Source: an uncultured Ruminococcus sp.
GTDB lineage: Bacteria; Bacillota; Clostridia; Oscillospirales; Ruminococcaceae
Length of the DNA stretch: 64,000 nt
NCBI RefSeq assembly: GCF_947301925.1
Contig: NZ_CAMYUE010000001.1
Span: 310,001 to 374,000 of the forward strand
Reading direction: 5' to 3'
In this document: positions 11,980 through 52,423 of the stretch, in pieces
Layout of the letters: each line of letters begins with the position of its first letter
Position numbering within the stretch: position 1 is the first letter of the stretch
Translations under genes and position numbers: made by a program
The notes under the pieces: generated by a model
Seen by the model: the letters and a program-made list of their open reading frames with translations, nothing else
Told to the model about the DNA's origin: nothing
Databases searched by the model: none

Positions 11980-12007
11980 AAAAGAGAGCATAAGCTCTCT
12001 TTTTTTA
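11980..12007. terminator. Bidirectional terminator between araC-type gene and rnpB
   Basis: The hairpin AGAGAGC-ATAA-GCTCTCT is flanked by A and T runs on both sides, so it can end both converging transcripts. Confidence 0.85.
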
Positions 12008-12008
12008 T

Positions 12009-12352
12009 GACCAGACCGATAAGCCGGGTTCTGTCGTGTGCGGTAATTTATCTACGCTTATCGTCGCCGATAAGCTGAAGCCGTCATTACCTGTTATCCG
12101 CCGAGCCGACGTTGAGATAACAGGCACCAATAGACGTTGCATCGGATAGGGTTTACATAGCAGCGCTGTCTCCAGCACTCTGGTGAGCTCTTACCTCGCC
12201 TTTCCACCATCGCCGCCGTAAAGACGGCAGTATATCTCTGTTGCACTTGCCCTAAGGTCGCCCTCGGCTGCCGTTAGCAGCTACCCTGCTCTGTGATGCC
12301 CGGACTTTCCTCGTAAACTAAAGCGTTTCCGCTACCGCATAGTCTGCTCACC
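12009..12352 (-). ncRNA. rnpB: RNase P RNA (class A)
   Basis: Read on the minus strand, the transcript has the hallmark core elements: GAGGAAAGTCCGGGC near the 5' side, AGGGCAAGTGCAACAGAGA in the middle, GGTGGAAAGGCGAGG, and ACAGAACCCGGCTTAT close to the 3' end. This is the catalytic RNA that trims tRNA 5' leaders. Ends are approximate: the 5' end is set from the promoter at 12358-12386 and the 3' end from the terminator at 11980-12007. Confidence 0.95.
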
Positions 12353-50740: not shown

Positions 50741-51679
50741 ATGAAAATACAACAGCTTGAATATGTGATCGCTGTGGCAAGAGAAGGTAGTATTACCAAA
50801 GCGGCAAAGAAGTTATATCAGGCTCAGCCTAATATAAGTATTGCCCTTAAAGAGCTTGAAGCGTCTCTTGGCATACAGATCTTTAACCGCTCTCCCAACG
50901 GAATGATCCTCACGCCTGAGGGTGAGGAGTTCCTTGCAAGAGCTCAGACCATTGTGGACGAAATGCAGAGTCTCGAAAGAGATTATGCCCAGACTCCCGA
51001 AAACGAACTGAAGCTGAAGGTCGCAGCCGCCCGTTCAACATATGCTACATCTGCTATGGGCAAGCTCATAAGCGACTACTCAGAAAGAACCGACAAGATC
51101 GAAGTACACGTTATGGAGACCAGCACTGCAAAGGTCATGGAGGATATCTGTGCCGGCAAATACGATATAGGCTTCATAAGGGTCCCCAGTACATACTCCG
51201 AAATGATCGAGAGCAGACTCAAGACCCGTAATCTTGTGGGAAAGACCGTTATGGAATTCCCGCTGCAGATCGTCATGGCTATGGATCATCCTCTCGCAAA
51301 GTATGAGGATATCCCCTATGAGCTCCTGTTTGAATATCCCGAGATCATACACGGCGACGACGAACCCGAAATGATCAGGCGTGCGTCGATCAACCAGGAC
51401 TACGATGACAAACGTTCAACCAAGCGCATATTCATCTATGACCGCGGCACACAGATCAGTATGCTCAAAACGGTTAAGAACGCATATATGTGGGTTCCTC
51501 CCATGTCACAGAAGCTTCTGAAGTACAATGATCTCGTTACAAGAAAATGCTCATATGCAAACAATCTTAACAGGGATATGATAATCTACCGCAGAGCAAG
51601 CGAAAACAGCTCACTCATTGCGGACTGTATAAGAGCGGTTTACGAATACGCTGATAAGGTCGAAGGCCTTGAAATATAA
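50741..51679 (+). CDS. LysR family transcriptional regulator
   Basis: 312 residues. The N-terminal winged helix-turn-helix is classical (MKIQQLEYVIAVAREGSITK, then AAKKLYQAQPNISIALKELE, LGIQIFNRSPNGMILTPEG). The C-terminal periplasmic-binding-like effector domain follows. LysR genes are usually divergent from their target, but here the upstream operon is co-directional and the neighbour downstream convergent, so the regulon is not evident. The effector is unknown. A strong terminator follows. Confidence 0.93.
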   Translation: MKIQQLEYVIAVAREGSITKAAKKLYQAQPNISIALKELEASLGIQIFNRSPNGMILTPEGEEFLARAQTIVDEMQSLERDYAQTPENELKLKVAAARSTYATSAMGKLISDYSERTDKIEVHVMETSTAKVMEDICAGKYDIGFIRVPSTYSEMIESRLKTRNLVGKTVMEFPLQIVMAMDHPLAKYEDIPYELLFEYPEIIHGDDEPEMIRRASINQDYDDKRSTKRIFIYDRGTQISMLKTVKNAYMWVPPMSQKLLKYNDLVTRKCSYANNLNRDMIIYRRASENSSLIADCIRAVYEYADKVEGLEI

Positions 51680-51683
51680 TAAT

Positions 51684-51726
51684 ACCCCGATCAGACGGCT
51701 TTCCGTCTTTGATCGGGGCTTTTTTT
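51684..51726 (+). terminator. Terminator after the lysR-type gene
   Basis: CCCCGATCA pairs with TGATCGGGG around an inner GACGG/CCGTC hairpin, then seven T. Confidence 0.9.
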
Positions 51727-51730
51727 GGCG

Positions 51731-51817
51731 AAAAAAAGAATGAGAGCCATTAGGGGGGAGGTTCTCATTCTTAATAAGGGGATATGAGATTGTCATTTAT
51801 GAAAGAATGACTTTCCA
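51731..51817 (-). ncRNA. Candidate small regulatory RNA with C-rich loop
   Basis: The minus strand has its own promoter (51824-51852), then ~87 nt without a supported ORF and an ideal terminator. The predicted RNA folds as: a first hairpin GUCAUU/AAUGAC, a single-stranded linker containing AUCCCCUU, and a 13-bp terminator stem AAGAAUGAGAACC / GGCUCUCAUUCUU with one G-U pair and seven U at the end. The terminator loop reads UCCCCCC, and with the adjacent stem end it is complementary to Shine-Dalgarno sequences. Firmicute sRNAs such as RsaE use similar C-rich motifs. The alternative is that this is only a terminator of the GNAT gene 135 bp upstream. Confidence 0.55.
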
Positions 51818-51823
51818 TAAATT

Positions 51824-51852
51824 ATTATAGCATAATGCAACCTTTAATGCAA
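51824..51852 (-). promoter_or_regulatory. Promoter of the candidate small RNA
   Basis: TTGCAT and TATAAT are separated by 17 bp on the minus strand, placing the transcription start near 51817. Confidence 0.6.
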
Positions 51853-51952
51853 ATATAAAAAATTAATCCCTTTATATGTATTCTTTATCATAGATTATTT
51901 AAGTAAGCAATTTACATTTCATTAATATTTGCACTGATTTTTCTTCATAATA

Positions 51953-52423
51953 TCAGTCGCGGCTGATTATTTCAGTTCTTGTTATCACAAATCCTGCGCT
52001 TTCATACAGCTTTACTGCCTTGTAATTCCATTGTGCAGTGCTCAGAGTTATAGGCTTATCCGTATAACTTCGTATATAGTTTATAGCCCATAGAAGCAGT
52101 TTTCTGCCGTATCCCCTGCCCTGATAGGAACTGTTGACTATAAGGTCGTCGATCTCTGTACCGAAGCAACCAACGCTGCCAATGATAATATCACCATCGG
52201 TAAGCAGGTATATGTTATCGGCTTTTTCTACCAGCTGATTTATATCATTATAATAATCAAAGGGCTTAACATCAAGTGCCTTCCTCATATCATAGAAACA
52301 ATCGTTATATATCCGCTCATACTGAGGATAATACTCCTTACTGAAAGGTATCATTCTAATCTCAGGAGCAGCTGTTATCTCTCCCCTGTATTCCATTTCA
52401 TATATCTTAAAGCTGTTCATCAT
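51953..52423 (-). CDS. GNAT family N-acetyltransferase
   Basis: 156 residues. The acetyl-CoA binding loop is VNSSYQGRGYGRKLLLWAI, followed by LSTAQWNYKAVKLYESAGF, both diagnostic of GNAT. The N-terminal ~40 residues are an extension with a patterned strand (ITAAPEIRMIPFSKEYY). The ribosome binding site is weak (AGAGA before ATGATG). The acetyl acceptor is unknown. No strong terminator follows for at least 130 bp unless the candidate small-RNA terminator serves it. Confidence 0.88.
   Translation of the reverse strand: MMNSFKIYEMEYRGEITAAPEIRMIPFSKEYYPQYERIYNDCFYDMRKALDVKPFDYYNDINQLVEKADNIYLLTDGDIIIGSVGCFGTEIDDLIVNSSYQGRGYGRKLLLWAINYIRSYTDKPITLSTAQWNYKAVKLYESAGFVITRTEIISRD

Follow-up and report, generated by a model that had tools for sequence, protein, structure and literature searches.

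The window, the whole 64,000-nucleotide (nt) stretch of an uncultured Ruminococcus sp. genome analyzed here (contig NZ_CAMYUE010000001.1, positions 310,001 to 374,000), carries a small RNA (sRNA) gene on its minus strand, between a lysR-type regulator gene and a GNAT gene. What the sequence demonstrates is a gene with a promoter, a defined structure, and strong conservation, and from these we infer that it is expressed as an independent transcription unit. The sRNA family is real and restricted to the genus Ruminococcus; it is unlisted in Rfam and is best described as a new family of a known kind. Our best explanation, which we consider probable, is that the sRNA is made from a dedicated promoter and acts in trans to block Shine-Dalgarno (SD) sequences, possibly with help from Hfq and probably under the control of a regulator. 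Coordinates are collected in Table 1.

Table 1. The sRNA gene, its promoter elements, and its neighbors in the window
Feature	Position	Strand	Description
sRNA transcript	51731-51818	-	~87-89 nt; start placed at the onset of between-species identity
5' hairpin AUGGAAAGUCAUUCUUUCAUAAAUGACAAUCUCAU	51784-51818	-	RNA folding; sequence lineage-variable, hairpin retained in most
Linker AUCCCCUUAUU, unpaired	51773-51783	-	unpaired probability 0.99 in the window; putative seed
Intrinsic terminator hairpin AAGAAUGAGAACC-UCCCCCCUAAU-GGCUCUCAUUCUU	51736-51772	-	12 pairs; folding and stem covariation
Terminator loop UCCCCCCUAAU	51759-51749	-	C-rich
T7 run	51737-51731	-	3' of the terminator hairpin
Extended -10, TGC-TATAAT (TGCTATAAT)	51824-51832	-	TG and TATAAT near-invariant in homologues
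-35 region: box TTTATATTTG (family form TATATATTTG) and hexamer TTGCAT	51847-51859	-	hexamer at 51852-51847; ATATTTG invariant in 26/26 homologues
Upstream box CATATA (family consensus TATATA)	51873-51878	-	~-60 from the transcription start
lysR-type regulator gene	50741-51679	+	Pfam HTH_1 and LysR_substrate; convergent with the sRNA gene
Terminator-like hairpin of lysR, CCCCGATCAGACGG...CCGTCTTTGATCGGGG, and T-run	51686-51726	+	read from sequence
GNAT gene	51953-52423	-	

The elements that the initial annotation had described on the minus strand, namely a -35/-10 pair with a 17-bp spacer, a short hairpin, a C-rich linker, and a terminator, are all present, and its length of 87 nt fits the transcript. 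The terminator stem, given there as 13 bp, comprises 12 pairs, split 10 + 2 by a single A/C mismatch. The transcript folded with a z-score of -4.5, and none of 200 shuffled sequences was equally stable. A search of the source genome returned no other copy of the gene. Since lysR has a terminator-like hairpin of its own, lysR and the sRNA gene are convergent and terminated separately.

We then compared the locus within the Ruminococcus flavefaciens group, to which the window belongs. Relatives with this lysR include R. flavefaciens ND2009, SAb67, 007c, ATCC 19208, YL228, MA2007, YAD2003, Y1, and FD-1, the further ones being metagenome-assembled genomes. Over 86 nt of the transcript, 11 of the 13 other clade members showed no substitution and the twelfth had one extra C, whereas lysR in the same comparisons had diverged at 14-22.5% of its nucleotides overall and, considering four-fold degenerate sites alone, at 43-66%, with neutral sites close to saturation. 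The -35/-10 spacer and the nucleotides from the -10 element to the predicted start varied among these same genomes, arguing that the identity of the transcript reflects selection and is no trace of recent transfer. Furthermore, because identity begins where the variable pre-start nucleotides end, transcription most likely starts close to position 51818. The comparison indicates that the sRNA gene is under very strong selection. We considered and rejected a mobile element, as the gene is single copy and syntenic and its promoter spacer has diverged. In the thirteenth clade member (L045), the sRNA was absent from the side of lysR and was found at the edge of another contig; a mobile-element-like gene lies at the contig end downstream of this lysR (G010:C117), and an insertion has probably come between lysR and the sRNA gene.

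More diverged homologues, with LysR proteins ~46-59% identical, were gathered from the DNA 3' of lysR orthologues of the genus. Common to them are the TATATATTTG box, a constant-length spacer leading to TGnTATAAT, a variable 5' region that in most cases forms a hairpin, the linker UUCCAUCC(CC)UUU, and a terminator hairpin; at the syntenic loci, promoter, linker, and terminator were retained despite different upstream genes. Covariation was evident in the terminator stem, where both partners have changed at 8 of the 11 aligned pairs. Of the stem cells, 94.4% were paired; shuffles reached 82% and slid controls no more than 55%. The initial annotation had looked to a covariance search in relatives, and such a search bore it out: a model built from the syntenic, diverged homologues (R1) matched the window genome at E 3.1e-10 and gave strong matches (E ≤ 1.4e-8), mostly single copy, in 52 of 125 Ruminococcus genomes. 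Across a family-wide sample of 199 genomes, the sole strong match was the window's own, and the best other (E 4.7e-4) came from a genus member; the family-level matches L148-L150 showed no promoter pattern and were set aside. The R1 search also returned tandem pairs in four species (G095, G104, G122, and G143), with copies ~325-350 nt apart (L128 and L133; also G104 and G143). At L128 and L133, both copies had a near-identical body, AAAGGACAAAUGCUGCUUGUCUUUUAUAAUGAUUUUUUCAAUUCCAUCCUUUAA, and differed in terminator stem or loop, suggesting that the conserved working part is distinct from the terminator. Overall, conservation, synteny, covariation, and the conserved promoter strongly support the proposal that this is an sRNA gene in its own right and that its C-rich motifs are accessible.

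The same comparisons bear on two other explanations of the locus. The hairpin could be a mere bidirectional terminator, shared by lysR and the gene that lies upstream of the sRNA, and there would then be no separate RNA gene; in several relatives it ends 9-30 nt from the lysR stop and, being flanked by A- and T-runs, may end lysR transcription there too. We regard this as very improbable, given that the clade shows no variation over the entire stretch from promoter to T-run, that the promoter boxes are conserved genus-wide while the upstream genes differ, that lysR in the window has its own terminator, and that some sRNA copies are located away from lysR. Alternatively, the transcript could be an mRNA or a dual-function RNA for a tiny leaderless peptide (MESHSFINDNLISPY in the window clade), as an ATG at the predicted 5' end opens a 15-codon frame in that clade and L052, L055, and L056 have a 14-codon frame, seemingly unrelated and equipped with an SD sequence. 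However, synonymous positions were as invariant as the remaining transcript, the L139 copy (of the L052 type) lacked the corresponding ATG, and about half of the aligned homologues had no ATG, GTG, or TTG frame of at least 8 codons, with no frame conserved. A coding role is therefore improbable, if a little less so than a terminator-only hairpin.

Within the RNA, the linker and the terminator loop differed in how widely they were kept. A UCC-containing linker was present in all 26 aligned homologues, with UCC(CC)UU as the universal motif, and its unpaired probability was 0.84-1.0 in nearly all of them and 0.40 in L064; L065, whose linker reads AUCCUAU, was left out of this scoring. The terminator loop carries C6 in the window clade, C5 in L067, L069-L071, L074-L076, and L079, C4 in L053, L054, and L057, and a partial run (CCUCC) in L086. 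No C-run was seen in the loop in 11 of the 26 (L052, L055, L056, L058, L062-L066, L068, and L072). In the initial annotation, a promoter and C-rich loop not conserved in relatives would have counted against the sRNA; the promoter was found everywhere, while the loop was kept in the R. flavefaciens clade, as well as in several other lineages, and was missing in these 11. As the linker is kept throughout and the loop is lineage-limited, we take the linker as the core element and the loop as an accessory. Since some diverged homologues have the C-rich loop and others lack it, the roles of linker and loop are separately testable. The transcript thus has UCCC in an unpaired region, its own promoter, and a terminator at its end, as expected of the C-rich, SD-blocking sRNAs of Firmicutes.

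In our proposed mechanism, the extended -10 promoter, together with two AT-rich upstream boxes, would drive an ~88-nt transcript that ends at the intrinsic terminator. The sRNA would most likely act in trans, its single-stranded UCC(CC)UU linker, joined in the window clade by the C6 terminator loop, pairing with G-rich ribosome binding sites, and this pairing would block translation of the target mRNA. Hfq, which is encoded in the source genome (E 1.2e-30), possibly assists pairing, and a specific regulator, plausibly the adjacent LysR protein, probably adjusts transcription. Of the possible mechanisms, pairing with ribosome binding sites is the most likely and our best-supported guess; it is, like Hfq use and LysR control, a step that we infer. 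Target prediction covered 450 kb of the genome and 258 genes, considered together with their orthologues from as many as two relatives. The linker paired at ≤ -12 kcal/mol with the start regions of 35 of the 258 genes, compared with the internal coding windows of 4, and the loop with 92 start regions compared with 42 internal windows. Among the top candidates were an asrA-like gene and frdA, both in one predicted iron-sulfur/fumarate reductase operon at 196-204 kb of contig C1; their start regions pair well across the clade with the invariant sRNA.

Several points weigh against this interpretation. Pairing with start regions was not above that of composition-matched shuffled seeds, which equaled it in 9-30% of trials, so linker and loop are generically anti-SD-like and no target is singled out. 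Of the initial suggestion that the C-rich motifs pair with ribosome binding sites, the excess over internal coding windows stood, but the target prediction did not beat its shuffled controls and established no target. Moreover, relatives in which the linker has changed retain the same asrA-like and frdA SD sequences and, with few exceptions, show poorer pairing; without co-variation of SD and linker there is no support for co-evolution, and the asrA-like/frdA operon is a weak lead. The C-rich loop, as described above, is missing from several lineages. The sRNA is linked to LysR by synteny, by co-occurrence, and by the promoter boxes, and common ancestry could account for part of this evidence. 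Transcription itself is deduced from promoter, structure, and conservation.

The lack of advantage over shuffles would also be expected if the RNA were real and mainly titrated a protein (Hfq- or CsrA-like) or another RNA, leaving ribosome binding sites uncovered, and invariance of the whole transcript in the clade exceeds the needs of a 7-nt seed. However, the most widely retained unpaired element is the UCC-rich, anti-SD-like stretch, and we saw no repeated protein-binding motif (e.g., GGA in loops) in the window transcript. We judge titration unlikely, though it is the most credible of the alternatives to SD blocking.

As to the candidate operon itself (G000:C1:196173-203717, plus strand), its predicted products are HdrA-like, hydrogenase/sulfite-reductase-like, and fumarate-reductase-like iron-sulfur proteins, names that rest on reading the proteins rather than on a family search. 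Two of its genes have unusual AAGGGG(G)-type SD sequences.

Next, we examined the promoter. The TATATA box occupies positions -49 to -44 before the -10 element (conservation 0.69-0.92 across the 26 diverged homologues) and lies ~20 nt upstream of the TATATATTTG box, which overlaps the -35 hexamer. A matrix of the promoter region scored the sRNA promoter at 52-62 bits in the window genome and two related genomes, while every other site reached at most 16 bits (450, 400, and 400 kb scanned in the three genomes). The conserved second upstream box suggests a dedicated activator, perhaps the neighboring LysR. Boxes of such spacing and position would suit the promoters of LysR-type activators. The sole other genomic match to the promoter pattern, L168 (G000:C5:113698-113732, plus strand), is located downstream of a LysR paralogue (32% identity), at a distance of ~240 nt. 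We rejected it as a second sRNA because what follows is a gene predicted to encode a ferredoxin-NADP reductase-like protein; the DNA ahead of that gene contains ATCGATAT/ATATCGAT inverted repeats.

The sRNA and LysR also occur together. In a set of 100 genomes, a LysR orthologue was present in 57, including all 43 that bear the sRNA, and none of the 43 genomes lacking the orthologue had the sRNA (Fisher p 3e-16, a value that ignores shared ancestry and is not to be trusted at face value). The two genes were convergent in 36 of the 43 sRNA-bearing genomes, with 9-178 nt from the model match to lysR, and ~920 nt apart on the same strand in two; in another four (five with the contig-edge case G010) they co-occurred apart. 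Control of the sRNA by LysR is plausible from this arrangement. It is a tentative further step to see here a genus-specific pair, in which LysR would activate the neighboring sRNA via the paired AT boxes at ~-60 and -35, with the anti-SD linker fixed and extra C-rich sites varying by lineage. Such a pair, if true, would give the LysR regulon a post-transcriptional arm in fibre-degrading bacteria of the rumen and gut.

In the open-access literature that we searched, no paper on small RNAs of Ruminococcus turned up, nor any account of this one. The gene is present in the cultured fibre-degrading strains ATCC 19208, 007c, and FD-1 (with a longer transcript expected in FD-1), and a strictly conserved sRNA gene in cultured strains offers an entry point to post-transcriptional control in cellulolytic bacteria of the rumen and gut.

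Finally, we compared the sRNA with known families. As the initial annotation had anticipated, no Rfam 15 family matched the sRNA at gathering score, either in the window or at 13 homologous loci, and searches at permissive E-values gave at most weak, chance-level matches; one to Streptomyces Scr3920 was on the opposite strand and far under threshold and was rejected. UCCC motifs that bind SD sequences are established for LhrC, RsaE, RNAIII, SprD, and FsrA (PMC4132741). The sRNA is a weak structural match to Listeria LhrC (RF00616; 25.8 bits, E 0.081), far short of the gathering score of 110 bits. LhrC, which binds the SD region of lapB (PMC4132741), has five copies and three C-rich sites and is regulated by LisRK, whereas the Ruminococcus sRNA is usually single copy, has two such sites in the window (linker and terminator loop, with none in the 5' loop), and may have a LysR-type regulator. 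RsaE/RoxS of Staphylococcus and Bacillus is likewise a Firmicute sRNA with exposed UCCC for ribosome binding sites (PMC4132741); the Ruminococcus sRNA differs in falling below the gathering score of any Rfam family. FsrA of Bacillus subtilis is also C-rich and targets ribosome binding sites (PMC4132741), and we found no sequence match between the two. The sole gathering-level Rfam match in the window was bacterial RNase P class A RNA, at 12004-12350 on the minus strand.
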